Shown here one piece after another: positions 36,535 to 63,162 of a DNA stretch of 64,000 nucleotides. Each line of letters opens with the position of its first letter. The stretch's first letter is position 1. The stretch is from Pseudomonadota bacterium (lineage in GTDB: Bacteria > Pseudomonadota > Gammaproteobacteria > Steroidobacterales > Steroidobacteraceae): positions 1 through 64,000 of the forward strand of contig JAFEDS010000017.1 in NCBI GenBank assembly GCA_018241505.1, in the 5' to 3' direction. The notes beneath the pieces were generated by a model. That model saw nothing but the letters and a program-made list of their open reading frames with translations, was not told where the DNA came from and searched no databases. Made by a program: the position numbers and the translations under genes.

Positions 36535-38004
36535 TCACAGGAGGCCTCCCATGCACAGATATTTGACCTCAGTGTAGTCCAGGATGCCGTATTTCGAGCC
36601 TTCGCGGCCGAAGCCGGATTCCTTGATACCGCCGAAAGGGGCCACCTCGTTCGAGATCAATCCGGTATTGAGCCCAACGATGCCGTATTCCAGTGCCTCC
36701 GCCACCCGCCAGGAGCGGGCGAGATCGCGAGTATAGAAATAGGACGCCAGCCCGAATTCAGTGTCATTGGCCATCCGCACCGCGTCCGCTTCGGTCGAAA
36801 ATCGAAACAGCGGCGCCACCGGCCCGAAGGTTTCCTCGCGTGCCACGAGCATGTCGCTGGTAACACCGGTGAGGACGGTCGGCTCATAGAAGGTTCCACC
36901 CAGGCTATGGCGTTTGCCGCCAATGGCAACACGGGCTCCCTTCTCCACGGCGTCTGCAACATGCTGCTCGACCTTGGCGAGCGCTTTGGCGTCAATGAGC
37001 GGACCCTGATCGGTGACTGCCTTCAGTCCATCCCCTACACGCAACTTGGCAACGGCCGCTATGAGCTTGTCGGTGAAGGCTTCGTAAACGGAGCTCTGTA
37101 CGAGCAACCGATTGGCGCAGACACAAGTTTGGCCCGTGTTTCGATATTTGCTGGTGATGGCGCCCGCGACCGCAGCGTCCAAATCAGCGTCATCAAACAC
37201 TATGAACGGTGCATTGCCCCCCAACTCGAGCGACAGTTTCTTCAGTGTCCCGGCGGACTGCGCCATCAACTTTTTGCCGATGCCGGTAGAGCCGGTGAAC
37301 GTGATCTTGCGCACAGTGGGGTTGGAGGTCATTTCGCCACCAATCGCGGCGGAGTCGCGTCCCGTGACCATATTCAACACACCCGCGGGAATACCAGCGC
37401 GGCGACCCAGCTCGGCCATTGCCAGTGCCGAAAAAGGCGTCAACTGCGAGGGTCTGCATACGAATGTGCAGCCGGCAGCGAGAGCGGGGCCGGCCTTGCG
37501 GGTGATCATCGCTGCCGGAAAATTCCACGGTGTCACTGCGGCAACCACACCGATAGGCTGACGTAACACCAGCAACCGTTTGTCAGACTGAGGTGTTGGA
37601 ATGACGTCGCCGTACAAACGCTTACCTTCTTCCGCAAACCAGTCTATGAAGGAGGCAGCATAGGCAATCTCACCCTTCGACTCCGCCAGCGGTTTTCCCT
37701 GCTCGGCCGTCATGAGGGTGGCCAAGTCGTCCTGATTGGCCATCATCAGATCGGCCCACTTCCTCAGAATGACGCCTCGATCCTTCGCCGTCCTGGCAGA
37801 CCAGGACGGGAAGGCAGCTCGAGCGGCCTCGATGGCGCGCCGGGTTTCATTGACACCCATATCCGGCACCGCGCCCAGCTTTTCGCGGGTTGCCGGGTTG
37901 TACACATCATGGGTTGCGTAATCAGCCGCATCCATCCATTCGCCCTGAATGAATGCCTGGGAACGCAGCAGGGTAGGATCTTTCAATGGCAGTGGACGGC
38001 TCAT
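36535..38004 (-). CDS. gabD: Succinate-semialdehyde dehydrogenase [NAD(P)+]
   Basis: 489-aa aldehyde dehydrogenase. It opens SRPLPLKDPTLLRSQAFIQG as GabD does. TGSTGIGKKLMAQSAGTLKK is the cofactor loop, LELGGNAPFIVFDDADLD carries the general-base Glu, and NTGQTCVCANRLLVQ the nucleophilic Cys (first Cys, near 293). The pair of Cys two residues apart is the redox-switch arrangement known from E. coli GabD. No GABA transaminase (gabT) is adjacent. Preceded by the AhpD-like gene with a 7-bp gap, so likely one transcript. Confidence 0.93.
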   Translation of the reverse strand: MSRPLPLKDPTLLRSQAFIQGEWMDAADYATHDVYNPATREKLGAVPDMGVNETRRAIEAARAAFPSWSARTAKDRGVILRKWADLMMANQDDLATLMTAEQGKPLAESKGEIAYAASFIDWFAEEGKRLYGDVIPTPQSDKRLLVLRQPIGVVAAVTPWNFPAAMITRKAGPALAAGCTFVCRPSQLTPFSALAMAELGRRAGIPAGVLNMVTGRDSAAIGGEMTSNPTVRKITFTGSTGIGKKLMAQSAGTLKKLSLELGGNAPFIVFDDADLDAAVAGAITSKYRNTGQTCVCANRLLVQSSVYEAFTDKLIAAVAKLRVGDGLKAVTDQGPLIDAKALAKVEQHVADAVEKGARVAIGGKRHSLGGTFYEPTVLTGVTSDMLVAREETFGPVAPLFRFSTEADAVRMANDTEFGLASYFYTRDLARSWRVAEALEYGIVGLNTGLISNEVAPFGGIKESGFGREGSKYGILDYTEVKYLCMGGLL

Positions 38005-39070: not shown

Positions 39071-39086
39071 TGGCACGCTTGATGCA
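39071..39086 (+). promoter_or_regulatory. Sigma-54 (-24/-12) promoter of the monooxygenase operon
   Basis: TGGCACGCTTGATGCA matches the sigma-54 consensus TGGCACRNNNNTTGCW at 11 of 12 defined positions (A for T at the first -12 T). The essential GG and GC are 10 bp apart. It lies 66 bp before the monooxygenase ATG in the otherwise gene-free 324 bp from 38828 to 39151. No other coding or RNA gene was seen in that gap. A TTTGACCA box about 120 bp upstream (38947-38954) could be part of an activator site. The activator gene is not in the window. Confidence 0.78.
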
Positions 39087-39151
39087 ATGGGCTTCCTGCC
39101 GGGCACATCTTCATCCAATGCAAAAAACGCAGCGCCAAAGGAAGCTCAAAC

Positions 39152-40405
39152 ATGCCGCCATCAGCCGTCCTGACACCAGTTCCCGCGTCGACTCAGCCAG
39201 CCGCACCAGGCGCGCTCGATGCGTTCTTCGGAGCGCCCGCTCCGGATCTCGGCATTGTCGCGCGAGCACAAGGCATTCAAGCGCTGATCCGCTCGCGCGC
39301 GAAAGCATCCGAAGAACAGCGCCGCGTGAGTGAAGATGTCATCGAGGCTATTCACGCCCAGCGGCTGTTCCACATTTCGGTCCCGCGGCGCCTCGGCGGC
39401 CTGGGTGGCAATTTCCGCACATTCATTGAGACCGTCGCCGAAGTAGGCCGTGCCGACGGCGGTACGGGATGGGCCACCGCGTTGCTCAATGTATGCACCT
39501 GGTTCGCAACACTCTTCGGCGAAGAAGCGCAAGCAGACGTATTTGGCAAACAACGCGACGCACGGGTCTGCGGCATCTTCACTCCGCCAACCCGCAGCGA
39601 GAGAGTGGCTGGCGGACTGCGTGTTACCGGTGAGTGGGGCTACGCCTCCGGATCAGCGCATGCTCAATGGGCGACGCTGGGAGTTACCCTGGGTCAGAAC
39701 CCGGACGGCTCGCCGATTCCCGGCCTGGCGTTGGTGCCGTTTTCCGATTTGAAGATCAAAGACACCTGGTATGTGGCGGGAATGAGCGCCTCCGGCAGCA
39801 ATACCCTGGTTGCCGACAATGTGTTCATCCCCGAGCACCGCGTACAGAACTTCAATGCAATGGGAGCCGAAGATTACGCTCGGAAACCGTCCGACGAGGC
39901 CAACGACTACGCATCCTTCATTCCCGTCGCGGAGATCATCCTCGTGGCGGTGCAATTGGGACTCGCGCGGGCCGCTATCGATATAACAACGCAGAAAGGC
40001 GCGACGAAGTCCGTGGCGTACACCGTATTCGCCGAAGCTCGCAACTCTCCAGCCCACCAGATCGAGTTTGCCAACGCAGCATCGCTCGCCGACCAGGCTC
40101 ACTTGTTGGTTGCACGAGCGTGCGCGGACATTGATATCGCAGCAGCTCAACATAGGAAGCTGGATCCGCGGGTGCGCGCCCGCGTACGCATGGATACGGG
40201 ACAAGCGGCCAAGCTCTGCCGGGAATCCATCAATAAGCTGTTGAGTGTGAATGGCGCCGGCTCCTTCGCGCAGGTCAATCCCCTGCAGCGCATCTGGCGG
40301 GACAGTGAAATTGCCAGCCGGCACGCATTCGTACTGCCGGAGATGGCCACATTGATCTACGGCCGCTCACTGTTCGGGGTGTCCGAATTCGTTCAACCCT
40401 ATTGA
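39152..40405 (+). CDS. Flavin-dependent monooxygenase, acyl-CoA dehydrogenase fold (HsaA/HpaB-like group D)
   Basis: 417-aa oxygenase component that would hydroxylate a substrate with reduced flavin supplied by a separate reductase. It has the acyl-CoA dehydrogenase architecture: N-terminal helices with RRLGGLGGNFRTFIE, GRADGGTGWATALLNVCTWF, a middle beta domain (VTGEWGYASGSAHAQWATLG) and a C-terminal type-2 helical domain with HAFVLPEMATLIYGRSLFGV. This matches the HsaA (3-HSA hydroxylase), indole/phenol hydroxylase and DszC group. First gene of a five-gene operon that includes its reductase, behind a sigma-54 promoter. Substrate unknown, probably aromatic or steroidal. Confidence 0.87.
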   Translation: MPPSAVLTPVPASTQPAAPGALDAFFGAPAPDLGIVARAQGIQALIRSRAKASEEQRRVSEDVIEAIHAQRLFHISVPRRLGGLGGNFRTFIETVAEVGRADGGTGWATALLNVCTWFATLFGEEAQADVFGKQRDARVCGIFTPPTRSERVAGGLRVTGEWGYASGSAHAQWATLGVTLGQNPDGSPIPGLALVPFSDLKIKDTWYVAGMSASGSNTLVADNVFIPEHRVQNFNAMGAEDYARKPSDEANDYASFIPVAEIILVAVQLGLARAAIDITTQKGATKSVAYTVFAEARNSPAHQIEFANAASLADQAHLLVARACADIDIAAAQHRKLDPRVRARVRMDTGQAAKLCRESINKLLSVNGAGSFAQVNPLQRIWRDSEIASRHAFVLPEMATLIYGRSLFGVSEFVQPY

Positions 40406-40429
40406 TCGCTCGCAGCACCGGTCGCCATC

Positions 40430-40762
40430 ATGCACAAGCTCATTGCCCTCTACCATCGACCCGAGCAGCCGCAGAAGTTCAAGGATCATCTGCTCGGAGT
40501 GCATTTGCCCCTGGTGGCGAAATTTCCGGGCCTGAAGGCGCTGCGGGTCGGATTTGACGTGGCGATCCCCACGGCGGCGAGCACTCCGGATACCGAGTAT
40601 TTCGCCGTCGTCGAATGCGATTTCGATGACGAATCCGCCCTGCAGCGGGCGCTCGCCTCCGCCGAGGGTCAGGCAGCGAGCGCCGATGTGCCCAACTATG
40701 CCGCCGCCGGCGTAACCATTCTCACTTTTCCAATCCAACTCTATGACAACCATAACCCATAA
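40430..40762 (+). CDS. EthD-domain protein
   Basis: 110-aa ferredoxin-like-fold protein of the EthD family: MHKLIALYHRPEQPQKFKDH, LPLVAKFPGLKALRV, and DTEYFAVVECDFDDESALQR. EthD proteins accompany oxygenases in degradation of ethers and in polyketide tailoring, where some act as cyclases or product-processing enzymes. Starts 24 bp after the monooxygenase and overlaps the flavin reductase by 20 bp. Its exact reaction cannot be inferred. Confidence 0.82.
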   Translation: MHKLIALYHRPEQPQKFKDHLLGVHLPLVAKFPGLKALRVGFDVAIPTAASTPDTEYFAVVECDFDDESALQRALASAEGQAASADVPNYAAAGVTILTFPIQLYDNHNP

Positions 40763-41255
40763 TCCGGATTTCCGGGGCGCAATGCGCCGCCTGACGACGA
40801 CTGTCAGCGTCATCAGTTGCGCACACGGCGATGCCTGGTTCGGTATGACGGCGACAGCCGTTACTTCCGTCTGCGCAGAGCCGCCCGCCATTCTGGTGTG
40901 TATCAACGGCACCTCCGCCATTCACAGTCCACTCATTTCCAGCAAGCGCTTCTGCGTGAATATGCTGCGTGTCGGCCAGGAGGCTGTTTCGCAGGCTTTC
41001 AGCGGCAAGCTGAAGGGAATGGACCGGTTTACGGCCGGGAGCTGGTCTCAGTCCGATGGCGGCCTGCCCTATCTCGAAACGGCACAAGCCAACCTCTTTT
41101 GCCGAACCGAACAGGTGGTCCCATTCGGGACCCACAGTATTTTCATCGGCGCAGTCGAATGGGTACAATTGGCCGATCGAATCGAACCGCTTCTGTATGA
41201 GGACGGCCGTTACGTCCGCTCCGCCGGTCTGCTCGAAGGGACGGAACCAACGTGA
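40743..41255 (+). CDS. Flavin reductase (HpaC-like)
   Basis: 170-aa FMN/FAD reductase that supplies reduced flavin by diffusion to the monooxygenase two genes upstream. Motifs: FRGAMRRLTTTVSVISCAHG, GMTATAVTSVCAEPPAILVC (flavin-binding), INGTSAIHSPL, FCVNMLRVGQ, and the C-terminal FGTHSIFIGAVEWV. Together with the HsaA-like protein it makes a complete two-component monooxygenase. It overlaps both neighbours, EthD by 20 bp and the M24 gene by 4 bp. Confidence 0.9.
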   Translation: MTTITHNPDFRGAMRRLTTTVSVISCAHGDAWFGMTATAVTSVCAEPPAILVCINGTSAIHSPLISSKRFCVNMLRVGQEAVSQAFSGKLKGMDRFTAGSWSQSDGGLPYLETAQANLFCRTEQVVPFGTHSIFIGAVEWVQLADRIEPLLYEDGRYVRSAGLLEGTEPT

Positions 41256-42505
41256 AATACAATCGTCCGCACGCCACAGCGTCGTATGGCACTCAGGCAA
41301 AGGACTGGGAACGAGGTATCGACTACGATCGGCTGCTCAAGGAGCGGCTGCGGCGGGCGCAGGACTCAATCCGGGCCGCAGGCCTGGGCGCCGTCGTCTG
41401 TTTCAATTTTGATAACATCCGGTACGTCACGGGCACCCACATCGGCGAATGGGCCCGCGACAAATTCATGCGCTATGCCCTGTGTGGAGTGGAGGGCGCT
41501 CCCCTCCTTTGGGATCCGGCTGCCCCGGCAAAGCGCCTCTCCTCCCCCTGGATTGCGGACAATGTGGCGGCACCCATTTCCACGATGCAGGGTGGCTTAC
41601 CGCCCTGGATGAAGGTGCAGGATGACTTCGCCCGCCAGATTCGCAAGGCGCTCGTGGATCGCGGCATCGAGAATAAACCCATCGGCATCGACATCATGGA
41701 GCTGCCGATGTTGCGCGCCCTGGAAGCGGCAGGCATCGAGGTGGTCGATGGACAGCAAGCCCTGTTGGATGCGCGTCAGATCAAGACACCGGATGAGATT
41801 GAGCTGCTGAAGCTCGCGGCTGCGCTCGTCGATGCTGCCTACGTCGACATTGCCCGCGCCATCCGGCCGGGCACGCGGGAAAACGAGCTCGTTGCGATTG
41901 CCAATGACAAATTGTTCCGCATGGGCTCCGAGCGGGTCGAATGCGTGAATTCAGTTTCCGGCCCGCGGGGACGGCCGCACTCTCACACTTTCTCCGATCG
42001 CATCATCCAGCCCGGCGACATGGTGTTTCTCGATGTCATGCACTCGTTCAACGGCTACCGGACCTGCTATTACCGTACCTTCATCTGCGGCGAACCCAAC
42101 AAGCACCAGATCGATGCGTACGAGACCGCCTCCAAATGGATCAGCGACTCCATTGACAAGGTGAAACCGGGCGTGACTCTCGATGAGATCGCTTCCGTTT
42201 GGCCCGATGCGACCGAATTCGGCTACAAGGACGAAGCGGAGGCGTTTCTATTGCAGTACGGACATGGCATCGGCTTGTCGCTGTGGGAGCGCCCGATCAT
42301 CTCGAAGCGCTATCGTGGGCAGACCACCCCGCTGCAGGAGGGTATGGTGTTTGCGCTGGAAACCTGGAAAGGCGCAGCCGACGGATCCGGTGCCGCGCGA
42401 ATCGAGGAGGAAGTGGTGGTTACACGCGACGGTTGCAACATCATCACCCACTTTCCGTCCGACCGCCTGATTTCGTGCGGTCTTCCCGGCTGCGAAATCT
42501 TTTGA
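41252..42505 (+). CDS. M24-fold hydrolase (Xaa-Pro peptidase/creatinase family), one metal ligand altered
   Basis: 417-aa pita-bread-fold protein with N-terminal creatinase-like domain (1-150) and C-terminal M24 domain (165-400). The first metal Asp is kept (MVFLDVMH, Asp261), as are His338 (YGHGIG), Glu370 (FALETW) and Glu386 or its neighbour (IEEEVV). The second Asp, expected in the GYxxDxTRT position, is Cys272 (GYRTCYYRTF). Creatinase, which is metal-free, also departs from Asp there. So it is probably not an ordinary aminopeptidase; a C-N hydrolase or lyase acting on the pathway product is possible. GTG start overlaps the reductase stop. Confidence 0.84.
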   Translation: MKYNRPHATASYGTQAKDWERGIDYDRLLKERLRRAQDSIRAAGLGAVVCFNFDNIRYVTGTHIGEWARDKFMRYALCGVEGAPLLWDPAAPAKRLSSPWIADNVAAPISTMQGGLPPWMKVQDDFARQIRKALVDRGIENKPIGIDIMELPMLRALEAAGIEVVDGQQALLDARQIKTPDEIELLKLAAALVDAAYVDIARAIRPGTRENELVAIANDKLFRMGSERVECVNSVSGPRGRPHSHTFSDRIIQPGDMVFLDVMHSFNGYRTCYYRTFICGEPNKHQIDAYETASKWISDSIDKVKPGVTLDEIASVWPDATEFGYKDEAEAFLLQYGHGIGLSLWERPIISKRYRGQTTPLQEGMVFALETWKGAADGSGAARIEEEVVVTRDGCNIITHFPSDRLISCGLPGCEIF

Positions 42506-43605
42506 ACGCCGTCGCGCCAAAGCGCGCGCACGCGCCCCGGACGCCGGTGTCACTCATCACCGGCTTCCTCGGCAGTGGCAAAACCACTCTGCTGAATCGC
42601 GCGCTGCGCGCGCCCGCCATGCGCGGCGCCTTGGTTGTTGTAAACGAGTTTGGCGAGGTCGGCCTGGATCACAAGCTCGTTGCGCACAGCAGCGACAACA
42701 TTCTCGTGTTGGAGAACGGTTGCCTCTGCTGTACCGTCTTCGGCGATCTGCTGGGCGAGATGAATCGCCTGTATCACCGGCGCGAGGCCAACGAGATCCC
42801 ACCGTTTGACCGCGTCCTGATCGAGACCTCGGGCCTCGCGGATCCGACCTCCCTGATTCAGGCATTCCTGTCGGATCCGTTGCTGTCGGGCCTATTCGAG
42901 CTCACTGCGACCATCACCCTGATCGATTCGGTCAACTGCCGTTCAACGCTCGACCGACACGATGAAGCTGTGCGGCAGATCGCACTTGCCGATCACCTGG
43001 TGCTGACCAAGCTCGATATGGCAGGCGCAGCGCAACGACCCCAGCTTCTGACCCAACTGCGTAGCCTGTTACGCACCCTCAATCCCAGGGCCGGCATCCA
43101 CACGGCCGAATCCGGCAGCCTCGACTGGGAGGCGCTGTTCCGCTGGCGGGGGCACGACCCTGGGCGCGGCTCCAGCGAGGCGACTGTCTGGCTCGGCGCT
43201 GTCCCAACTGAAGACTCCGAGCACTCGCCGGCTGGCAATCATCACCATTTCGCCAGCAATCATCTGCAGGTCGCCAGCTACTCCTTCGTGCGCGAAGATC
43301 CCCTGCCACGACTGGCACTGCAGTTACTGCTGCAGGGCATCGAGCAGAACCTGGGCCCGAACCTGCTGCGGTTCAAAGCGATCGTCAATGTCGAGGGCGA
43401 AGCCAACGGGCCCGCTGTCATTCATGGCGCGCAACATCTTCTCCATAACATGACCTGGCTCGACCGCTGGCCCTTTGCCGATCGGAAATCGCGCTTCGTT
43501 TTGATTGCCTCGGGTATCCGGACCGGCCCCTTGGGCGAGATGATCGATCTGCTCGACCGGATCGCCTGGCGCAGCGCCAAGGCGCGGCAAGCCGCCGCGA
43601 TATAG
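42502..43605 (+). CDS. COG0523 (CobW/CobP47K) GTPase, putative metallochaperone
   Basis: 367-aa SIMIBI GTPase. G1 GFLGSGKTTLLNRAL near residue 21, the metal-binding CxCC in VLENGCLCCTVF (73-77), ETSGLADPTSLI, and TKLD as G4; the C-terminal CobW domain starts near 250. A His-rich stretch (GNHHHFASNHL) separates the domains. COG0523 proteins insert Zn, Co or Fe into client enzymes. I place the start at TTG 42502, which overlaps the M24 stop (TTGA); the frame upstream is an overprint of the M24 gene. The likely client is the M24 protein beside it. Confidence 0.88.
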   Translation: MNAVAPKRAHAPRTPVSLITGFLGSGKTTLLNRALRAPAMRGALVVVNEFGEVGLDHKLVAHSSDNILVLENGCLCCTVFGDLLGEMNRLYHRREANEIPPFDRVLIETSGLADPTSLIQAFLSDPLLSGLFELTATITLIDSVNCRSTLDRHDEAVRQIALADHLVLTKLDMAGAAQRPQLLTQLRSLLRTLNPRAGIHTAESGSLDWEALFRWRGHDPGRGSSEATVWLGAVPTEDSEHSPAGNHHHFASNHLQVASYSFVREDPLPRLALQLLLQGIEQNLGPNLLRFKAIVNVEGEANGPAVIHGAQHLLHNMTWLDRWPFADRKSRFVLIASGIRTGPLGEMIDLLDRIAWRSAKARQAAAI

Positions 43606-46008
43606 CTACCCGCGTGCCAGCTCCGCGTGGGCGCGCACCACAGCAGAAGCGTCACGGGTCGCCACAATAAACCTCGGCCGGAACACGTCAACCCAGGCAG
43701 GGACGAAGAACATCGCACTCACTGCATTGATCAGCAGCATGATGATCAGGAGCCGCGCGGAGTCGGCCTGAAACCGCAGGTCGGATTCGAAGACCCACAT
43801 CACAATTCCGCCGATGAGAGTGCTCGCAGTGAGCGCAATCGCCACGCCCGTCGTCGCTACCGAGCGTCTGACCGCCTCTTGCAACTGCACTCCCGAGCTC
43901 ATCTCCTCCTTGATCCGGTCCATCATGTAGATGGAGTAGTCGACACCGAGCCCGATACCTACCGCAATCATCGGCACAGTGTTGACGTTCAAACCCATAC
44001 CGAGTATCCCCATGCACGCATAAGTCGTAACCGTGGCAAACAGCATGGACATCAACATCATGAAAGCCGCGTGCGTCGAGCGGTAAAATCCCCACGTGAA
44101 GATGAAAATGATGGCCAGAACGGCGGGTACCACGATGAGGTTGGTGCGAAACGCCTCCTCGTTGATGGCAGCCTCCACACCCACTGGACCACCCGCCAGG
44201 TCGAGATGCAGCCCGTTGATCCTGGAACCTACGGTGTCGGCCCAATGGTTGACCATGTATAACGCTCGCCGGATGGTCTCGCCGGTGTGATCCTTGTAAT
44301 AAAACACCATATTTGCCAGGCGGTCGTCCGTGTCCACGTACTGTGAAAGGGTCGCCGGCGTAGGGGAAGACATCATGTACGTATACATGATCCCACCGAT
44401 CTCCTGACCGTTGGCGGGAATGACCCGCCATCTGGGATCGTCGTACCGCAGCATCATGCCAACGTGCGCCACGAGGTTGTTGACACCTCGGCTGCCACCC
44501 AAGGAAGAGTCCTGCATCATGTAGCTCTGGAAGTCGTCCAGTCCCTTGAGGACCTCGCTGTTCTTGATTCCACCCTTGGTGTCGGTTCGCGCTATGACAA
44601 ACAGCTCTTCCGAGCCCGGAAAAGTGCTGTTGACCGCATTGGATGACACATTGTAGTCGTGACTACGATACAACAGCGGCGAACCCGGTTCGGGCTCTCC
44701 GACCCGCACGCGTGAGCTGAGACCGGTGGCCACGACGACGACGGCAGCCGTCGCATACAGCGCCAGCCGTGAGCGCAGCGGAGTTGCTGTCACCGCGGCC
44801 AACTTCGGAAACAGATCGCGGATGAAGGTTTTCTGGATCCGGTGATCGCGCGGCTGCGGCAGCAGGGCCAGCAACATCGGCAGTGTCACCAGCACCGTCA
44901 CAATCATTGAGAGCGCCCAGAAGGAGGCGTAAATGGCCATCTTGTTGTTGACCGGCACCGAACCCAGGCCGATCAGAAACAGGGCGGATGCATCCGCCAC
45001 AATGGCCAATGCACCGGGCCTGAACAGTGAATCGAATGTATTGCGCGCGGCCCGCAGACGATCGCCCGTCAGCTCGAGCTCCAAGTAATATCGCTCAACT
45101 TTCTGGATGCCGTGCGACAGCGAGCGTGCCGAGATCAGAAAAGGCACCACCAGCATCAGCGGGTCCAGATTGAATCCGGCGACTCCCATGAATCCCACGC
45201 CCCAGATACTGGTCAATGCCATACCGACCAACGGCAGGACGATGCCGTACAGGCGGCGCATGTAAAGGACCAGCACGGCCAGCACTATCAAAACCGTGTA
45301 GAGAAATATCTGCAGAATCTGACCGCTGTAGGAGCTCACCCAGCCAACGAGCACCGGATGCCCGGTTGCATAGATCCTGATGCCCGGAGCCGTTTCCGTG
45401 GCGCGCATGTTCTGGACTTCCGCGAAAACCTGCGCGTAGTCGATCTTCCTTTCGAGCAAAGTGCCCTTGATGATGGCCGCCTTGCGGTCCGGCGACACCA
45501 GCAGGCCATAGACCTGGGCATCGGCGAGCACGTGACTTTCAATGGTGCGCAGCTCGGCATCGGTGTAGGTTCGGCCGGGTTCGTAGTACGGAGCCGACTT
45601 GATGGTACCGTCGCTTTCCAACCAGATGCGGCGCGTCGCCCGGTGGGTCACGCTGCTCACGAGGTTGTGATTGACACCATCCAGGTTGTCCATCGCCAAT
45701 GTGAGACGATGGATGCGCGCGAGGGTGTCATTCGTGAAAATGGTGCCCTGATCGACCTGGACCATCAGGTCTATGATGTTGGCTCCGCCGAAGGTATCCC
45801 GGATCCGATTGTGAAGCTGTATGTAAGGATGGCGCTGGGGCAGCAGGTCCGCGAACTCTGATAGCATCTTCACAGCGGGAATCTGCAACCCGAACCAGCC
45901 GGTCATCAGCACAATTCCAGCCAGGACCTTGATGCGGTTGTCGAACAGGCGATTGGCCAGCCAGGGAAAGAAGCCCTTGTGGTTCGTCTCATCCATTGGA
46001 TTTCTCAT
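43606..46008 (-). CDS. MMPL/RND-family transporter (HAE3-like)
   Basis: 800-aa inner-membrane transporter with two repeats of one helix, a large periplasmic loop and five helices. Helices include VLAGIVLMTGWFGLQIPAV (N-terminal) and IFLYTVLIVLAVLVLYM. MIAVGIGLGVDYSIYMMDRI, with the RND-type Asp, is in the second half. MMPL proteins of this length move lipids, hopanoids or hydrophobic catabolites across the envelope. ATG 46008 overlaps the Ycf48-like stop (ATGA). Its stop codon directly abuts the stop of the convergent COG0523 gene. Last gene of the TonB-receptor operon. Confidence 0.9.
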   Translation of the reverse strand: MRNPMDETNHKGFFPWLANRLFDNRIKVLAGIVLMTGWFGLQIPAVKMLSEFADLLPQRHPYIQLHNRIRDTFGGANIIDLMVQVDQGTIFTNDTLARIHRLTLAMDNLDGVNHNLVSSVTHRATRRIWLESDGTIKSAPYYEPGRTYTDAELRTIESHVLADAQVYGLLVSPDRKAAIIKGTLLERKIDYAQVFAEVQNMRATETAPGIRIYATGHPVLVGWVSSYSGQILQIFLYTVLIVLAVLVLYMRRLYGIVLPLVGMALTSIWGVGFMGVAGFNLDPLMLVVPFLISARSLSHGIQKVERYYLELELTGDRLRAARNTFDSLFRPGALAIVADASALFLIGLGSVPVNNKMAIYASFWALSMIVTVLVTLPMLLALLPQPRDHRIQKTFIRDLFPKLAAVTATPLRSRLALYATAAVVVVATGLSSRVRVGEPEPGSPLLYRSHDYNVSSNAVNSTFPGSEELFVIARTDTKGGIKNSEVLKGLDDFQSYMMQDSSLGGSRGVNNLVAHVGMMLRYDDPRWRVIPANGQEIGGIMYTYMMSSPTPATLSQYVDTDDRLANMVFYYKDHTGETIRRALYMVNHWADTVGSRINGLHLDLAGGPVGVEAAINEEAFRTNLIVVPAVLAIIFIFTWGFYRSTHAAFMMLMSMLFATVTTYACMGILGMGLNVNTVPMIAVGIGLGVDYSIYMMDRIKEEMSSGVQLQEAVRRSVATTGVAIALTASTLIGGIVMWVFESDLRFQADSARLLIIMLLINAVSAMFFVPAWVDVFRPRFIVATRDASAVVRAHAELARG

Positions 46009-46967
46009 GGCGTTCCAGCCAGCGTAAACAACGTACCGGCGCCGCCGGCTACGACGTACCCGCCCTCCTCGGTCCGCAGGATTACCCTCAGATATGAATG
46101 CGTTTTGCGCGAGTCAGGCAACACACTCCAGCCGCGAGCAGTCTGTTGAAGAATCGCGCCATCGCCTCCGACCGCATATGCAACGCCGCCGTCGCTCGCG
46201 ATACCGTACAACGGACTCGTGGTGTGTGCCTCGGCGGCGGCCCAATGCCGTGCTGCGTCCGTAGTCTCGACAATCGATCCGTTCAACCCCACGGCCCACC
46301 CATGCTCCATATCAGAAAAGTGCGCCGCCTCGGGGTAGATGTCGCCCGGGAGTGAAGGCAGCTTCTGCCAACTGGCTCCCGCGTCGCTGCTGCCGAGGAC
46401 TGTGCCGAACTCTCCAGTGATATAACCGTGGAGTCCATCAACGAACTGGATGGTCGTCAAGAACAGGTCCTGTTGGTCGAGGGTGGTGCGTTGCCAGTGA
46501 TTCCCACGATCGCCACTCGACAGCAGCGTGGCCGACTCGCCAACTACCCAGATCCGGCCCGATGCGTCGCAAGTGATCGCCTGCGGCCTCGCATTAGCAC
46601 CCAACGGCCGCGGGCTCCAGGTCCTGGCATCATCAACAGACAGCCAGAGTGAGCCCTCATACGAGATGGCGGCGAAGGTGTTCACTCCGCAGTCGGCCAC
46701 TGCAATCAGCGCAGGCCAGCCTGGTAGCGTGGCCCGCTGCCAGTGAGTGCCGCTGTCTTGCGACACAACAACGAGTCCATGGGCTCCGACCACTACGAGT
46801 GTTCGGCCGTGGCGAGCTGCTGATTGAAACTCATCGGTGCGCCGGACCGGACTCGCCTCAGCCGCCTCGACATCAGCCAGAGTAAGCGGCGGCTGACATC
46901 CGCTCAATGCGCAGCAGCCGATCGCAACCAGGGCGCTGACCGCAACACCCGGAACGGCGCGGGACAT
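46005..46967 (-). CDS. Ycf48/BNR-repeat beta-propeller lipoprotein
   Basis: 320-aa predicted lipoprotein: signal helix then lipobox ALSGC (Cys near 24). The body is a series of beta-propeller blades with Asp-box-like motifs: SQDSGTHWQRATLP, SVDDARTWSPRPLG, SGDRGNHWQRTTLD, SSDAGASWQKLP and TTDAARHWAAAEA. This resembles Ycf48/HCF136 photosystem assembly factors, but in heterotrophs such proteins sit beside MMPL transporters, DUF1302 and DUF1329. ATG 46967 falls one base after the DUF1302 stop; starts up to 47003 are possible. Probably a periplasmic scaffold for the transporter. Confidence 0.85.
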   Translation of the reverse strand: MSRAVPGVAVSALVAIGCCALSGCQPPLTLADVEAAEASPVRRTDEFQSAARHGRTLVVVGAHGLVVVSQDSGTHWQRATLPGWPALIAVADCGVNTFAAISYEGSLWLSVDDARTWSPRPLGANARPQAITCDASGRIWVVGESATLLSSGDRGNHWQRTTLDQQDLFLTTIQFVDGLHGYITGEFGTVLGSSDAGASWQKLPSLPGDIYPEAAHFSDMEHGWAVGLNGSIVETTDAARHWAAAEAHTTSPLYGIASDGGVAYAVGGDGAILQQTARGWSVLPDSRKTHSYLRVILRTEEGGYVVAGGAGTLFTLAGTP

Positions 46968-46968
46968 T

Positions 46969-48939
46969 TCAAAACTTGTAGCGGGCATTGAATTGCACTT
47001 CATTCTCTCGAAAGGCCTCCCCGATCACGCCGGAACGGAAGGCGCCGAGCGGGGCAATGCTCTCGGTCCGTGCCTGCGACTGCCCGACCGCCCCCACCGG
47101 TCCGGTAAACGGCGGGAACTGATTGGCGGCGCGCAGATCATCGAACTGCTTGTCCGCGCGCCCCCACTTGAAATTGCCGCCCAGATTCAACTCGATGTGG
47201 TTGCTGGCAAGCCAGGTCACGCTCGGCGCAACCGCCCCGCCCTGACCTCGCGTGTCATAGGCGGTAATGATCTGGGGAGTGAGGCGGTCACTCAGGTAGT
47301 TGCCTTGAATCAGCAAGGTGCCGATGAAGTTGTCCTTCCAGTCCGGCATGCCCGCCGGTCCCAGGGGCGTTTCAATCAGCTCGTGCCGCAGAATGTGCTG
47401 ACCGAACACCTGGGCGGAGACGAGGAAGGTGCGATTGGCATTCAGGAAGGGAATCCAGGTCGGGCGATCCCAACCCAACACCCAGCGCACGACGCCCGAT
47501 TCCCTGTACAGATTCGGTTGCAGCGTATCGGCGAACTCCTCGCCGTGAGTATGTGCAACTTCCAGACGGAACGCCGATTTCAGACTATCCACGTAGGTGT
47601 CGACGGAACCTCCCAACGTAACGACACGCGGAAACACGATGTCGAATGCCGGTAGATAGGGAACCGGGACCGGTTGATTGCCGCCGCCGGGCGGCAGGAA
47701 CGGATTGAGTGCCGGTACTCCGCCATGCAGCACCGGCAACTGGGCATACGAATACAAGCCATTCAGCGAGAAGCCGAAACCACCGGCCTCACCTTCCAGT
47801 CGCAGACCGACCGGCGAATGATTCAAGGACCAGGCCGGCAGGTCCGCCTGCCGGATCCCCAGCACATGCGGGCCGAAATCGATTGCCAGGCTGCCGGTGC
47901 TGGGCAGGCCGGTCAACGGCGTCAGATTGTTGGGCGCAAAATTGCCCACCGTGCAGCCATAATTCCAACAGGTACTCAGGGCCCGGAAAAGGTTGCCGAC
48001 TCCGGCGATCGCGTAGGGTTGGCCGCCCTGGCCAATGAGGTCGGGCCGGAACTGCTCGAACTGCCAGATGAGCTGCACATTGAGGGACTGAAACGGGCCC
48101 CTGGCGCCCAACTGCAACTCGCTGTTGACAATACCGGTGGGCAGGCGGCTGTCGTTCAGAGGCTCATAGATATTCTGAATGGAATAATCCACGGGATTGA
48201 TGACATCCAGAACCCGGAACAGATCCGTGCGGCCCCACACCACCTGTTGCCGTCCGATGCGCGTCGTGAGCCGTACACCATTGCCCAGTGGCAGCACCAG
48301 ATCTGCATACAACTCCCGCAGCCAATCCTGGCGGTGATTGAATTCCGGAAACTCGAGCTGTGTCTGAGTGCTGTCCAGGTACCCGGGAATGCAGCCGCGC
48401 CGGTCCTGGTTGCAGGGTGCGGAAGGATACGCAAACTGCAACCCGCCGAAACCCGGCGTCCCGCCGGTCAACCCCCGGTTGAAACGAGTCAGCCCGCTGT
48501 TGGGGTTGAGCGCCGTGTTGAATCCAAAACTGCCCGGCAGCGGCCGCACCGCGCTGCCCCATCCCTGGCCCCAGGGCAGAGAGGCTGAATGGGTCCCATC
48601 CTGCAGCACGATTGCGCTCGGACCACCCGAGTTGCCCAACTGAACACTGCCACCGGCACGGTCTCCCCAGTGATCATCGTTCAACGCGTACTCAGCGTCG
48701 TAACTGATTCGGACCACCCCCGAGATCTTGATCGAGGAAAATGCTCCCGCGGCACCGAAGTCCTTTGCAAAGTCCGTCAGCGCGCGCAAACGCTCCTTCG
48801 ACAGACCCGTGCCGTCAACACGGAAATAGGTCGCGTCTGAAAAATATCCATGAAGCTCGAGCGGCTCGCCACCTTGCGCCCACGCGGATGGGACCACCGC
48901 GGTCATCGCCGACAACACCGCCCAGATAGCATTCTTCAT
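46969..48939 (-). CDS. DUF1302 family outer-membrane protein
   Basis: 656-aa exported protein. Signal peptide MKNAIWAVLSAMTAVVPSAWA, then a long stretch with barrel-like alternation and a C-terminal Phe (QFNARYKF), the mark of an outer-membrane barrel. Family blocks include DWLRELYADLVLPLGNG, RQQVVWGRTDLFRVLDVINP and HVLGIRQADLP. DUF1302 and DUF1329 proteins are usually adjacent and turn up in clusters for degradation of hydrophobic compounds; transport across the outer membrane is suspected, not shown. Followed after one base by the Ycf48-like gene. Confidence 0.88.
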   Translation of the reverse strand: MKNAIWAVLSAMTAVVPSAWAQGGEPLELHGYFSDATYFRVDGTGLSKERLRALTDFAKDFGAAGAFSSIKISGVVRISYDAEYALNDDHWGDRAGGSVQLGNSGGPSAIVLQDGTHSASLPWGQGWGSAVRPLPGSFGFNTALNPNSGLTRFNRGLTGGTPGFGGLQFAYPSAPCNQDRRGCIPGYLDSTQTQLEFPEFNHRQDWLRELYADLVLPLGNGVRLTTRIGRQQVVWGRTDLFRVLDVINPVDYSIQNIYEPLNDSRLPTGIVNSELQLGARGPFQSLNVQLIWQFEQFRPDLIGQGGQPYAIAGVGNLFRALSTCWNYGCTVGNFAPNNLTPLTGLPSTGSLAIDFGPHVLGIRQADLPAWSLNHSPVGLRLEGEAGGFGFSLNGLYSYAQLPVLHGGVPALNPFLPPGGGNQPVPVPYLPAFDIVFPRVVTLGGSVDTYVDSLKSAFRLEVAHTHGEEFADTLQPNLYRESGVVRWVLGWDRPTWIPFLNANRTFLVSAQVFGQHILRHELIETPLGPAGMPDWKDNFIGTLLIQGNYLSDRLTPQIITAYDTRGQGGAVAPSVTWLASNHIELNLGGNFKWGRADKQFDDLRAANQFPPFTGPVGAVGQSQARTESIAPLGAFRSGVIGEAFRENEVQFNARYKF

Positions 48940-48969
48940 CTTATTCCCCCCTTTTTTGCGGCGATCGAA

Positions 48970-50319
48970 CTAACGACCCGAAGACCGCATGTTTTGTACG
49001 TCGAACAACGCGGGTGTCCCCAGCCCGCTGTCTACGCGCCCGTGAAAGTAGAAGGCCGTGCAGTGTTCTGACTGCACATCTACGAGACTTGCCGTATCAC
49101 CCGTGTCAGCACCCTTCCCCTTGTTGATGGGCAGCGTGTCCTCGACATTCGGCCATCCGATGTGGAACCACTTCCACCAGTTGCCCTTGCGGTCATAAAT
49201 GAGCGACACGGGGATCTCGTTGATCTGGGCATCAAAGTACAGGACCCGCTTGGAGATCGGATGGTTGGGATCCTTCGGCTTGCCTTCGACGACATACACC
49301 TTGCGCAACTGCCAGGGCGCGTCCGGGAAGCACTTGCCACGGCCGGTGAAGTTCACATACCGCCAGTGGTCGGCGGGATTTGTATAGGTATCGTTCTTCT
49401 GTGCAGCAATCACCTTGTTGTGATTCCACATCGGCATCAGCAGAGTCGCTTCGCCCTGGTAGCTCCATGTGTAGTCGGCCACCTTCCCCTCGTAGCCTTC
49501 GAAATCCTCGATCATCAGATCGCTTCCCAGGAAGGCATCCGTCATCTGGCCGGTGGCGAAGCGGCGCACGCGCTTCTGGAAACCCAGATAGATCCAGCCA
49601 TCAAGCTGCTTGGTGTCATCCTTGTATTTGTGAATGAGTAGCTGCGTATCCTTCAGATCGAAAGGCTCTTCAATTCGGATATAGATGCCGCGATAAACCC
49701 CTTCCGGATTGGCGGCCCACTCTGGCTTCGGAGGATCCACCGAGCGAAACGCATACCGCGCAAAGCACGCCTTGTCGAACTTGATGATGCGTTCGTTCTT
49801 GTCCGATTTGATGTTGTTGTAATGCCAGTACCAGGGATCGAGGCAGCCCAGGTCGCCCCAGATCCGGCCATACTCGAAATTCCAGACGAGCTTCTGCGCC
49901 GCGTTCGGATCCTTCTCGTCAGGCTCGAATGGGAAAGGCCGGCCGTTCGTGTAGTGCGTCAGATTGCCGTTTTCGATCCGCACATCGGTGTTGTGCCGCG
50001 ACTGCTCCACGTAGTCCGGATGCAGCACGAAGTCTTCGGATTCTGCGACATTGAGGGAGTACCACCCCCGCTTGATGATCTGGTATGTACCCGGATCCAA
50101 CACCGCTTTGAACGTATCGACGTTGTCCGCCGAGATACGCGTACCGGGATGCACGCCCTCGGCCTTTGGAAAGCCGTCCTTCTTGTATGGGAAAAACGAA
50201 TAGTCGACATCGGCGGAGGTCACGGCCGCCGGCAGCTTGGGCGAGATGAAACTCACCACGGCACCCATCAGGACGGCGGCACTGACTCGGACCAACCTGC
50301 GATTCATGAACATCTTCAT
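48970..50319 (-). CDS. DUF1329 family periplasmic protein
   Basis: 449-aa exported protein with signal peptide MNRRLVRVSAAVLMGAVVSF. Family features include the N-terminal EGVHPGTRISADNVDTFK, the aromatic-rich SYQGEATLLMPMWNHNKV, RKVYVVEGKPKDPNHPISKR and YDRKGNWWKWFHIG. The fold is LolB/LolA-like by family knowledge, suggesting a lipid or hydrophobe carrier in the periplasm between the DUF1302 barrel and the MMPL transporter. ATG 50319 overlaps the stop of the IS66-derived gene (ATGA). 30 bp separate it from DUF1302. Confidence 0.88.
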   Translation of the reverse strand: MKMFMNRRLVRVSAAVLMGAVVSFISPKLPAAVTSADVDYSFFPYKKDGFPKAEGVHPGTRISADNVDTFKAVLDPGTYQIIKRGWYSLNVAESEDFVLHPDYVEQSRHNTDVRIENGNLTHYTNGRPFPFEPDEKDPNAAQKLVWNFEYGRIWGDLGCLDPWYWHYNNIKSDKNERIIKFDKACFARYAFRSVDPPKPEWAANPEGVYRGIYIRIEEPFDLKDTQLLIHKYKDDTKQLDGWIYLGFQKRVRRFATGQMTDAFLGSDLMIEDFEGYEGKVADYTWSYQGEATLLMPMWNHNKVIAAQKNDTYTNPADHWRYVNFTGRGKCFPDAPWQLRKVYVVEGKPKDPNHPISKRVLYFDAQINEIPVSLIYDRKGNWWKWFHIGWPNVEDTLPINKGKGADTGDTASLVDVQSEHCTAFYFHGRVDSGLGTPALFDVQNMRSSGR

Positions 50320-51218
50320 TCTCCCATGCTCTGTCGATCGGATCGCGCGGCTGGCAGCTCATTGAAAAGCCAGCGCAAGTAGCTTTGTGGCTCCATCTTG
50401 TTGACTGTCGCCGTCGCAATCAGGCTGTACAGCGCCGCTGCATTGGCCGCATCGCGATCCGACTCGGCAAACAGCCATTTGCCGTGCCCGGCGCTGACCG
50501 AGCCGATCGCCGCTTCGACCGCGCTGTTGTCGATCTGCACGGATCCGTCCTGCAGGTAGCGGATCAGACTGGGCCACTGGCTCAGACAGTGATTGAATGC
50601 CTGCGCCAGCACATCGACTCCGGGCTGCAAGCGCTGCGACATCCAGTCATGCAACCGGGCGAGCGCGGGCCGCGCTCTACGCTTGCGAAGCGCAACGCGC
50701 TGCCGCGGCTCGAGAAGCTGTGCCTCGCGCTCGACGGCATAAAGCGCATCAATCAGACAGATGGCCCCGGACGCCGCGGATCTGGCTTCACGCAGTGAGG
50801 TGGGAAGGTGCTGGAGTGCCCGGCGGATGCGTACTCTGCATTCGTTGAAACACCCCAACGGCACGAGGCCGAGCTCCGCGGCAACCCGCTCGTAACAGGT
50901 AGCGCCATTTGACTGCAGATACCCAGCCACCCCTTGCAACAGGTGCTGCAACTTCGAGTCCGAATCGGCGCGCTGGAAATCAAACAGCACAATCTGCTGC
51001 CCGGGCGGCCCGGCCATGCGCACCCACATCCGATGCCGCACGGCGGGCGCGCTGCCTTGGCTCAGCATCCACAGGCTGGCTTCGCTCACTTGGACATAGC
51101 CGAAGCGCCGCAATCGCGAGTCCCAGGCGCGCAAAACCGGACGAATATCGACCTGCCGGTCGAGACTGTCGAGAGCCGCCAATCCGGCTGACCTGTGACT
51201 GCGGGCCCGGGGGTTCAT
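50316..51218 (-). CDS. IS66 transposase-derived protein without catalytic Asp residues
   Basis: 300 aa aligning with the C-terminal two thirds of IS66 TnpC. Landmarks: VQVSEASLWML (TnpC HADETPVxML), GYLQSNGATCYERV (TnpC LxxDxxxGYxx), LGCFNECRVRI (TnpC GCxAHxRRKF), ALYAVEREA, RYLQDGSVQIDNSAVEAAIG, GKWLFAESDRDAANAAALYS. The DDE Asp residues are replaced (Ser45, Asn104); only Glu235 remains. The N-terminal DNA-binding part of TnpC and the partner tnpA/tnpB genes are missing. The ATG directly follows the TonB-receptor stop and the stop overlaps the DUF1329 start. The frame is intact, so it may be a domesticated gene rather than debris. Confidence 0.8.
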   Translation of the reverse strand: MNPRARSHRSAGLAALDSLDRQVDIRPVLRAWDSRLRRFGYVQVSEASLWMLSQGSAPAVRHRMWVRMAGPPGQQIVLFDFQRADSDSKLQHLLQGVAGYLQSNGATCYERVAAELGLVPLGCFNECRVRIRRALQHLPTSLREARSAASGAICLIDALYAVEREAQLLEPRQRVALRKRRARPALARLHDWMSQRLQPGVDVLAQAFNHCLSQWPSLIRYLQDGSVQIDNSAVEAAIGSVSAGHGKWLFAESDRDAANAAALYSLIATATVNKMEPQSYLRWLFNELPAARSDRQSMGE

Positions 51219-53366
51219 TCAGAACTTGCGCGTTACGGTCAAACCGAAAGTCCGCGGCGCCGCGTATTGCGCGTAGTCCGCGTTGCCCTGAGCGTACATC
51301 GCGGTCGTGTAAGCCTTCTGCGTCAGATTCTTTCCCCAGACGCGCGCGCTATAGGCATCCGTTGCAGAAGTCCAAGTCGCGGAGGCATTCAGTAACGGGT
51401 AGCCGCCCTGCCGGAAGCGATTGTCCGGCTCGTAAAAGAATCCCGAGTTGTAGCTGTAAGTCGCCGCGAGCGTGGCGGTGCCCTTGTCTGCAAGAGGAAT
51501 CGTGTAGACCGGTGAGATATTCGCAGTCCACTTCGCTGCCAACGGCAGCCTGTTGCCATGGGCGTCAAACGTGGAAAGAATCGAGCCACCGCCGGGCGCA
51601 GGCTCGGAGAGCTGTGCGCCGGGAAAATCGGCGTAGTTCGCGCGCAGAATCTCAACACCTCCGGACACCGTGAAGTTCTTGACCGGCGCAAACTGGAAAT
51701 CGATGTCAACGCCGGAGATGTATGCCCGGGGCGCGCTGTACACCAGCTCTGTGCCGGCCGGATATCCGACCGTCTGCAGATTGCGGTAGTTGTAGTAGAA
51801 GGCCGCCAGGTCAAAACGCAGATGGTGGTCGAGAAGATCCGACTTGGCGCCGATCTCAAACGCATCCAGCGTCTCCGGTTTGTAAGGAGCTACGGGCAGG
51901 TATTCATCGTTGTAGCCGCCCGTCTTGTATCCCCGGTTGTAGGAGACATAGAGCAGAATATCCGGCGTCATTTGCCGATCGAGTGAAATACGCCACGTGG
52001 GTTCGTTCGAGCTTTGATGTGCCGCACCGGTACCGAAGATGACCAGCGAGTTGTCGGGATAGAGTCCGCTTTGCAGATTTGAAAACTTCTTGTCTTCGTA
52101 CGTCTCCCGGACGCCCAGCGTCAGGTTGGTACCGGCGAACAGCTCCTTCGTGGCCTGCCCGAACGCGGCCAGCGAATAGTTCTTCGCACGCGAGTACGTG
52201 TAGAAATTCGTCAAAGGGTTGATGTAGCCGCCCTCGAGATAGATGGGCGAATATTCGGCGGTCGCCTGGTAGAAGTAGACGCCCGTGGTCCAGGTTATTG
52301 AGCTTCCGGGCGCGGAGCGCAGATCGAACTCCTGGGTGACCTGGCGATTGAGGTCCCACAGAATGATATTCAAGGCAAAGTTGGGATCGGTGACGAAGGT
52401 GCCGTCGAGCGCCGAGTACAGCCGGCTCTGCAAATACGCGCTGGTGCTTTCGAGGCTCGCACCGCCAAAATCGTGGCTGATCTTCAGTGAGACCGCGCCC
52501 TCCTTCTCATCGACCAGAGGCTGGTAGTAGCCATCCGCACTCCACGGCGATCCTGTGTAGGGCACGCCACCCACCGGGGTGGTGCCCGGCGCGGGAATCA
52601 GGACCGGAGAACTGTGGTCCTGCTCGTAGTCCGCCGTGAGCATGATCACGTCCACATCCGTGGGCGTGAATTTGTTCTTCACCCGGATGGCAAAGTCCTC
52701 GGCTTTGTTCACGCCCAACCCGGTGAACGCATTGCGCCCGAAGCCGGTAGATTGATTCTGGAAGTAGACCGACAGGTTGCTGGCCAGTTGGGAGGTGAGA
52801 CCTCCGGTTACATAGGCACTGCCCCCGAAGGTTCCGTAGTTGCCGCCGGTGAGGCTGGCCGACCCGCCGAATGCCTGATCCGGGTCCCGGGTCACAATTT
52901 GAATCAACCCACCGGTGGCATTTCGTCCAAACAGCGTGCCCTGGGGACCCTTGTCCACTTCTATGTGATCGATGCCCTCGAGAGAAAAAATGCTGGCGCC
53001 CTGTGAACCGTAGTAGATCCCGTCAACGTACACGGCCACCGGATTTTCCACCGACGCACTCGGCGCCGTGGTTCCAATGCCGCGCAAGTGAGGCTGGAAA
53101 TAGCCGAATTGCGCGGTCGGTATCAGTCCGGGGGTGACGGCTCCGAGATCCGTCACCGTCGTCATGACACTCGTATGGAGTTGCTCCGCCGTGAATGCTT
53201 CAACGGCAACAGGCACATGCTGCAGGCTTTCCGAACGCCGCTGAACGGAGACAACCACTTCAGCCAGCGCGGATGAGTCAGCCGCCGGTGAATCAGCGGC
53301 GGTCTGCGCCATGAGATCTGACGATGACAACATGGCTGCAAGTGCAGCAACCCCAAAACACTTCAT
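51219..53366 (-). CDS. TonB-dependent outer-membrane receptor
   Basis: 715-aa receptor for energised uptake of large or scarce ligands. Signal peptide to about residue 20 (SSDLMAQ). The plug domain shows LAEVVVSVQRRSESLQHVPV, LRGIGTTAPSASVENPVAVY, VDGIYYGSQGASIFSLEGID and DKGPQGTLFGRNATGGLI. A barrel follows with a terminal Phe (LTVTRKF). The sequence type (QRRSESLQHVPVAV, iron complex-like) is common in sphingomonads and Steroidobacter-like bacteria, where many members import non-iron substrates. It is the first gene of a six-gene operon behind a sigma-54 promoter. Confidence 0.93.
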   Translation of the reverse strand: MKCFGVAALAAMLSSSDLMAQTAADSPAADSSALAEVVVSVQRRSESLQHVPVAVEAFTAEQLHTSVMTTVTDLGAVTPGLIPTAQFGYFQPHLRGIGTTAPSASVENPVAVYVDGIYYGSQGASIFSLEGIDHIEVDKGPQGTLFGRNATGGLIQIVTRDPDQAFGGSASLTGGNYGTFGGSAYVTGGLTSQLASNLSVYFQNQSTGFGRNAFTGLGVNKAEDFAIRVKNKFTPTDVDVIMLTADYEQDHSSPVLIPAPGTTPVGGVPYTGSPWSADGYYQPLVDEKEGAVSLKISHDFGGASLESTSAYLQSRLYSALDGTFVTDPNFALNIILWDLNRQVTQEFDLRSAPGSSITWTTGVYFYQATAEYSPIYLEGGYINPLTNFYTYSRAKNYSLAAFGQATKELFAGTNLTLGVRETYEDKKFSNLQSGLYPDNSLVIFGTGAAHQSSNEPTWRISLDRQMTPDILLYVSYNRGYKTGGYNDEYLPVAPYKPETLDAFEIGAKSDLLDHHLRFDLAAFYYNYRNLQTVGYPAGTELVYSAPRAYISGVDIDFQFAPVKNFTVSGGVEILRANYADFPGAQLSEPAPGGGSILSTFDAHGNRLPLAAKWTANISPVYTIPLADKGTATLAATYSYNSGFFYEPDNRFRQGGYPLLNASATWTSATDAYSARVWGKNLTQKAYTTAMYAQGNADYAQYAAPRTFGLTVTRKF

Positions 53367-53421
53367 GAAGCCCCCTCGATTCGTTAGTCAGCCAGAGTCT
53401 GCTGTGAACGCTATTGTTGTT

Positions 53422-53437
53422 AGCATGAGGCGTGCCA
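53422..53437 (-). promoter_or_regulatory. Sigma-54 (-24/-12) promoter of the TonB-receptor operon
   Basis: On the minus strand TGGCACGCCTCATGCT runs from 53437 to 53422. It matches TGGCACRNNNNTTGCW at 11 of 12 defined positions, with the same A-for-T mismatch as the promoter at 39071. The -12 GC is about 57 bp before the receptor ATG (53366). A TTTGACCA box at 53497-53504, also seen before the other promoter, could be an activator site. The 172-bp gap to trxB has no gene. Confidence 0.77.
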
Positions 53438-53538
53438 ACTCCTCAGGGCCGCGGCGGGGGCCGCTGCGACCTCTCTGTCACTTCATAGCGGTCGCCTTTG
53501 ACCAAAACGGCCGCAGCCGGTGGCGTATGTGACCAACA

Positions 53539-59134: not shown

Positions 59135-59187
59135 CACGCGCCCCTGTGTAATGCACCAGATCCTAGGGCGCTTTGCTTTTCACCGAA

Positions 59188-59205: not shown

Positions 59206-59240
59206 TGGTGGTCTCGCGCTGCTTGCGGGAGGGGCGGCTT

Positions 59241-59660: not shown

Positions 59661-59672
59661 TCTTGCTTTCCT

Positions 59673-63150: not shown

Positions 63151-63162
63151 CAGAGCCCTTCA

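Follow-up and report, generated by a model that had tools for sequence, protein, structure and literature searches.

Do the two convergent operons in the first 64,000 nucleotides of contig JAFEDS010000017.1 (assembly GCA_018241505.1, Steroidobacteraceae; here called the window) answer to a single sigma-54 activator, and what compound would they serve? The left operon, on the forward strand, starts at 39152 and encodes a two-component flavin monooxygenase (FMO) with associated enzymes, and the right operon, on the reverse strand, starts at 53366 and encodes a TonB-dependent receptor and a set of DUF1329, DUF1302, Ycf48-like and MMPL proteins; as originally predicted, they converge and their stop codons abut at 43605/43606. 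The original prediction had joined both operons into one sigma-54 regulon for the uptake and oxidation of a hydrophobic compound that was left unnamed. The joint regulon is well supported by two rpoN-like genes in the genome, a single XylR_N-containing enhancer-binding protein (EBP), an orthologous unit in Agrobacterium and the recurrence of sigma-54 sites before the efflux set in other lineages. We consider it likely that the whole block is one sigma-54 regulon under this XylR/DmpR-type EBP, combining phenolic sensing with oxidation and efflux.

The near-identical -24/-12 elements that had been predicted at 39071 on the forward strand (element A) and at 53437 on the reverse strand (element B) are present in the sequence, each with one mismatch to the sigma-54 consensus as quoted in PMC3063778. 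The mismatch occupies the identical position in both, the first T of TTGC, so that both read TGGCACG-N4-xTGCW, and both retain the -24 GG, the -12 GC and the spacing that define a sigma-54 promoter. Both sites lie just before the first genes, with measured distances to the start codon of 65 bp for A and 55 bp for B, and no sigma-70-like promoter turned up when the region around each operon start was scanned for the consensus. A and B had been described as the only strong matches; a third one-mismatch site exists on the reverse strand at the operon junction (43604-43619) and is probably a chance match. Three one-mismatch sites in the window compare with 1.06 expected, a count that 11 of 100 shuffles reach and that is not significant. 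The improbable feature of A and B is their position, which is stronger evidence than the motif match: among 30 hand-listed segments of 150 bp at open reading frame (ORF) starts in the window, two contain a site with one mismatch or none, compared with a shuffle mean of 0.038, and only 2 of 1000 shuffles reach two.

A co-occurring enhancer-binding protein, which the original prediction had named as something to look for, was found 6 kb beyond the window and 16.5 kb from promoter B (C8:69965-71686, in coordinates of the same contig). The genome contains two rpoN-like genes (PF00309 matches above cut-off) and 14 strong EBP domains, ten of which had their Pfam architecture read, and XylR_N has a single match in the assembly, the protein at C8:69965-71686. 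With XylR_N, V4R, AAA and Fis-type helix-turn-helix (HTH) domains, it is an EBP of the XylR/DmpR type that aligns with the CapR structure 6iy8, PoxR and MopR. In DmpR/MopR-type sensors a His-Trp pair anchors the phenol hydroxyl, and three cysteines and one glutamate bind zinc, as described in PMC7264223 and PMC10715001. The corresponding residues His119, Trp147, Cys168, Cys194 and Cys202 are retained in the alignment, and Glu191 is likely the fourth zinc ligand. This retention of the His-Trp dyad and the cysteines narrows the hydrophobic compound of the original prediction to a probable phenolic. A VanA-type Rieske oxygenase and a reductase adjoin the EBP gene, and no sigma-54 site with one mismatch or fewer was found in this Rieske/EBP region (C8:62000-80000).

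Support also comes from a plasmid of a different lineage. Protein searches of 72,556 plasmid records returned 82 records for the monooxygenase (E <= 1e-40), only one of which exceeds 60% identity, and 54 for the EBP, where again a single record exceeds 60%. Both are plasmid pAt2 of Agrobacterium fabrum Kin001, with 68% identity for the monooxygenase and 68.5% over 492 residues for the EBP; the second-best EBP identity among the 20 plasmid matches listed is 47.9%. On pAt2 the EBP gene is divergent from genes for the FMO, the EthD-family protein (61%) and the reductase (65%), in the same gene order as here, and the intergenic region contains a sigma-54 site, TGGCACGAAATGTGCA (L154:19865-19880), 63 bp before the FMO ATG compared with 65 bp for A. 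No other site with one mismatch or fewer exists in the 41-kb pAt2 stretch. The unit differs from the block here in that the EBP gene is adjacent, and no TonB or Ame-like genes are annotated or matched within the 41 kb. The homology suggests a joint movement of sensor, promoter and monooxygenase between lineages. Around the pAt2 unit lie genes for an intradiol dioxygenase, a maleylacetate reductase and, beside folate genes, an aminomethyltransferase-type protein, and these surroundings, together with the VanA-type Rieske oxygenase beside the EBP, suggest without showing that the substrate may be a (methoxy)phenolic compound.

For the right operon, a link to sigma-54 is also suggested by its efflux set. 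Its four adjacent Pfam families (DUF1302, DUF1329, COG4447/Ycf48 and an HAE3 RND transporter) correspond in domain composition to the AmeABCD cassette, although the MMPL transporter scores 86.6 bits on the HAE3 model TIGR00921, below the cut-off of 351.9. Deletion of AmeABCD lowers monoterpene tolerance and increases Nile Red accumulation, which the authors read as export (PMC6394551). Since the domain composition matches a cassette read as an exporter, the uptake role originally proposed is probably wrong for these four proteins, and export would be expected instead; the TonB receptor is the only component that still points to uptake.

In order to follow this set across genomes, DUF1329 was used for a genome scan and the best 80 of 363 relatives were kept as module loci, of which all 80 encode DUF1329, 75 DUF1302, 66 MMPL and 61 Ycf48, some loci being cut by contig ends. 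After 17 loci with less than 200 bp upstream were dropped, 63 were searched within 400 bp upstream. Thirteen of these have a sigma-54 site with one mismatch or none, compared with a mean of 0.18 and a maximum of 2 in 100 rounds of shuffling, and 22 have one with two mismatches or fewer (shuffle mean 2.38, maximum 6), and the reverse-complement control yields one locus at either threshold. The 13 loci span six named genera and one class-level metagenome-assembled genome, and several are close relatives. An EBP homologue (40-47% identity) occurs in 19 of the 80 module loci. Among the 63, such a homologue accompanies 12 of the 22 loci that have a site and 4 of the 41 that have none (Fisher p = 0.0002, kinship ignored). 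On plasmids, DUF1329 is found in one record (E <= 1e-60), with no sigma-54 activator annotated within 18 kb.

The enhancer is the least certain part of the regulon. An XylR/DmpR enhancer is a 16-bp palindrome resembling TTGATCAATTGATCAA located upstream of the promoter. Nineteen of the 22 efflux loci with sites (L083, L093 and L137 omitted) were scored against this consensus along with A, B and the Agrobacterium promoter. In 14 of the 19 the score reaches at least 10/12, with a maximum of 12/12 and no more than 4 of 200 shuffles reaching the score in each case, which supports the link at the level of the module. The scores at A (8/12), B (8/12) and the Agrobacterium promoter (9/12) are not significant, since 78, 66 and 37 of 200 shuffles, respectively, do as well or better, and the lack of a significant canonical enhancer at A and B is the weakest link of the regulon reading. 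Upstream of both elements lie candidate half-sites of another type (Table 1), with a GTGACCA 104 bp upstream in Agrobacterium. Of the 17 TGGCACGN5TGCW sites of the genome, A and B are the only two preceded by a TTGAYCA half-site at a distance of 40-160 bp; the remaining 15 have none. This pattern is only suggestive of an enhancer. The EBP recognition helix reads LTRSKLRYRL here and LTRAKLRHRL in Agrobacterium, compared with TRPxLAYRL in 10 of 16 module-linked EBPs. The EBP shares domain order, His-Trp dyad and zinc-ligand cysteines with the phenol sensors DmpR, MopR and CapR. It differs from them in its HTH, which could account for a non-canonical enhancer, and in the lack of a significant canonical one.

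Taken together, these observations are consistent with a regulon in which the EBP would bind a phenolic effector through its sensor domain, assemble at enhancer sites approximately 70-125 bp upstream of both -24/-12 elements and open both promoters. The two-component monooxygenase of the left operon, together with the EthD-family protein, the M24 hydrolase and the COG0523 GTPase, would then hydroxylate the aromatic substrate and start its breakdown, while the TonB receptor and the AmeABCD-type pump of the right operon would keep the toxic substrate or an intermediate out of the membranes.

Several observations weigh against this regulon. The motif TGGCACGN5TGCW has 17 matches genome-wide and its reversed control 16, and motif count alone was rejected as proof because neither this count nor that in the window is significant. 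The -12 element of A and B departs from TTGC, and the TTGAYCA motif was picked after inspection. At the module level, 41 of the 63 loci have no site with two mismatches or fewer, and the statistics ignore relatedness; the nearest relatives found (DUF1329 at 56% identity in locus L059, MMPL at 69% in L120) lack both a good site ahead of the module and, in the stretches examined, an EBP homologue. L059 contains a MalT-like LuxR regulator instead of the EBP homologue, and such a regulator, a VanA-type Rieske oxygenase and DUF1329 lie close together both there (L059:4549-11314) and in the genome studied here (C8:64503-69441 and window 48970-50319). For the monooxygenase, none of three plasmid loci of lower identity (45-48%, from 81 such records; two are Rhodococcus loci) has an annotated sigma-54 activator adjacent to the gene. 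In a search for orthologs in sampled genomes, the best match in 200 genomes of the family reaches 34%, none besides its own was found in 369 genomes of the class (E <= 1e-45), and the only other match in 398 genomes of the phylum (E <= 1e-75) has 39% identity and no sigma-54 site in the surrounding 4.2 kb. Finally, the annotated Agrobacterium EBP (L154:18125-19699) breaks off ahead of its HTH, which can be read downstream in another frame, owing either to a mutation or to a sequencing error.

It is conceivable that only A belongs to the EBP regulon, having been inherited with the monooxygenase cassette, and that B is a chance match, the TonB-efflux operon being read from another promoter. Comparison of upstream regions across genomes, one of the checks originally proposed, succeeded for A, which has its homologous Agrobacterium promoter, and failed for B, for which no orthologous promoter was found and whose nearest efflux-gene relatives are the site-less L059 and L120; isolated -24/-12 matches are also expected by chance. 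Promoter A is more secure than B. Nevertheless, B stands 55 bp from a start codon, deviates from the consensus exactly as A does and has no sigma-70-like promoter by consensus scan, candidate half-sites precede it and sigma-54 sites are found before the efflux set of other lineages, all of which make a restriction to A unlikely.

It is less probable still, and in our view quite improbable, that the sites are real and driven by a different strong EBP, such as a response regulator, from among the other 13 of the genome. The number of EBPs in the genome and the missing canonical XylR enhancer would fit such a case, but the linkage of EBP and monooxygenase recurs in Agrobacterium with equal identity for both, and an HTH unlike that of most canonical XylR types could itself explain a different enhancer.

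Returning to the regulon of both operons, its components and candidate control sites are collected in Table 1. The gene families originally named are supported by Pfam; the one omission was an ORF with an IS66 DDE domain between the TonB and DUF1329 genes. The assembly has a size of 7.9 Mb, bigger than the genomes listed for the same genus, and an estimated contamination of 5.7%.

Table 1. Control sites and genes of the two convergent operons, in window coordinates
Feature	Positions	Strand	Remarks
-24/-12 element A, TGGCACGCTTGATGCA (TGGCACG-CTTG-ATGCA)	39071-39086	+	one mismatch to TGGCACGN4TTGCW
-24/-12 element B, TGGCACGCCTCATGCT (TGGCACG-CCTC-ATGCT)	53422-53437	-	one mismatch to TGGCACGN4TTGCW
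Third -24/-12 match, TGGCACGCGGGTAGCT, on the operon junction	43604-43619	-	one mismatch
Candidate enhancer half-site TTGACCA in imperfect palindrome TTGACCAGCCGGTTGGCTAA	38948-38967		begins 123 bp before the -24 element of A
Two candidate half-sites, TGGTCAA (53498-53504) and TGGTCAC (53529-53535)	53498-53535		start 67 and 98 bp upstream of B
Flavin monooxygenase, class D HsaA/HpaH C2-like, oxygenase component	39152-40405	+	PF08028/PF02771, PDB 2rfq
EthD-family protein	40430-40762	+	PF07110
Flavin reductase component	40743-41255	+	PF01613
M24-fold hydrolase, DddP/prolidase-like, without second metal Asp	41252-42505	+	PF00557, PDB 4s01
COG0523/CobW GTPase, CLCC motif	42199-43605 (ORF limits)	+	PF02492/PF07683; true start probably near 42475-42502
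MMPL/RND transporter, AmeD-like	43606-46008	-	PF03176
Ycf48-like protein, AmeC-like	46005-47003	-	PF14870
DUF1302 protein, AmeA-like	46969-48939	-	PF06980
DUF1329 LolA-like protein, AmeB-like	48970-50319	-	PF07044
IS66-transposase-derived ORF, 300 residues	50316-51218	-	PF03050
TonB-dependent receptor	51219-53366	-	PF00593/PF07715

The enzymes of the left operon fall short of the specific family models. The FMO scores 238.5 bits on NCBIfam NF045629 (cut-off 450) and the reductase 80.6 bits (cut-off 230), so that neither reaches the HsaA/HsaB equivalog cut-offs, and the M24 protein scores 120.7 bits on the DddP dimethylsulfoniopropionate lyase model NF043017 (cut-off 600). Dinuclear metallohydrolases of the M24 family coordinate their metals with five residues (D, D, H, E and E); the second Asp is missing in all six aligned members of this clade, which share an invariant GYRTCYYRTF. 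This clade without the second Asp is common to actinobacterial and roseobacter plasmids, and here its member adjoins the COG0523 GTPase. ZNG1-METAP1 is a precedent for a metallochaperone pair, but a corresponding M24-COG0523 pair is weakened as an idea because the clade lacks a metal ligand and no COG0523 neighbor of M24 is annotated in any of five related plasmid loci examined (gene table incomplete).

The IS66-derived ORF begins directly after the TonB stop codon (gap 0) and shares 4 bp with the start of DUF1329. It scores 148.5 bits on NF033517, below the cut-off of 180, and in an alignment with eight relatives of 504-586 residues two invariant Asp are replaced by Ser45 and Asn104 while the invariant Glu235 is kept, the three positions being those we take to be the IS66 catalytic acidic triad. 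Given the two replacements, the ORF is probably not an active transposase, although its frame is still open, and it is possibly an exapted one. Searches for IS66 ends found only repeats that do not bracket the ORF, and no short counterpart was recognized in 120 genomes of the family, where 31 of 40 matched places lie in frames of at least 487 residues and shorter places were left out.

Beyond the two operons, genes for an aldehyde dehydrogenase, the M24 protein, an NAD-dependent dehydrogenase, the E1 and E2 subunits of a 2-oxoacid dehydrogenase and a VOC-like protein are dispersed over 36535-38004, 41252-42505 and 58250-63693. These genes, among them those for the M24 protein (48-50% identity) and E1 (40-61%), turn up in differing combinations on plasmids of Paenarthrobacter, Streptomyces and Tritonibacter, as does a hydroxyisobutyrate-dehydrogenase-like protein of this region; one such plasmid locus lies near an annotated sulfonamide-degradation reductase. 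The VOC-like ORF (63142-63693) matches annotated VOC proteins at 53-57%. Between it and the E1 gene lie a perfect ATTGGATCCAAT palindrome (63078-63089) and a TATAAT, and because both are beside a GntR-FCD regulator gene (63735-64496), the genes of this region probably form a separate regulon. That A and B are both coincidental, with the operons in different regulons such as this GntR-FCD one, would fit the genome-wide motif count and the palindrome at neighboring catabolic genes, but it is highly implausible given that the palindrome occurs without mismatch only at 63078 in the window, the position statistics of A and B, and the Agrobacterium unit.

With a testable activator named, two loose promoter matches become a specific regulon, and the recurrence of a sigma-54 site with a nearby activator homologue at the sampled AmeABCD-like cassettes is a candidate general rule. 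The little-known DUF1302 and DUF1329 genes could then be read as solvent defense tied to aromatic sensing, and the variant EBP might be used as a new part in phenolic biosensors. A broader proposal, which we offer tentatively and with some doubt, would hold that AmeABCD-type pumps across alpha-, beta- and gammaproteobacteria are as a rule outputs of XylR/DmpR-sigma-54 sensors of phenols and aromatics, and that the locus here represents a separate EBP subtype shared with Agrobacterium, with an altered helix reading a TTGACCA-type enhancer and a dead IS66 transposase coupled into the efflux operon. No statement on sigma-54 control of AmeABCD-type cassettes in general was found in the openly licensed literature, which is a weak negative.

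Among known systems, AmeABCD of Castellaniella defragrans combines DUF1302, DUF1329, a Ycf48-related COG4447 protein and an HAE3 RND transporter in one cassette, as here, and the available part of its description mentions no sigma-54 control (PMC6394551). The likeness is one of domains; here the TonB receptor and the IS66-derived gene precede the set, and the order is DUF1329-DUF1302-Ycf48-MMPL. The phenol hydroxylase cluster of Zoogloea oleivorans brings together a sigma-54 Fis regulator, a ring-hydroxylating alpha subunit, DUF1302 and DUF1329, and it differs in its multicomponent phenol hydroxylase and in that no Ycf48 or MMPL gene is named in the available account (PMC7012976). A published precedent for the control scheme is EtpR of Aromatoleum aromaticum EbN1, an EBP of the same XylR_N-V4R-AAA-Fis architecture that controls a catabolic cluster and a 6.5-kb efflux cluster, each reported to have sigma-54 motifs (PMC4630880). 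The pathway there is the anaerobic degradation of p-ethylphenol with the EBP encoded between the clusters, whereas here it is FMO-based, the operons converge and the EBP gene lies at a distance from the nearer promoter; nevertheless, since EtpR already joins catabolic and efflux clusters under sigma-54 motifs, a regulon of the kind proposed here is a known one.

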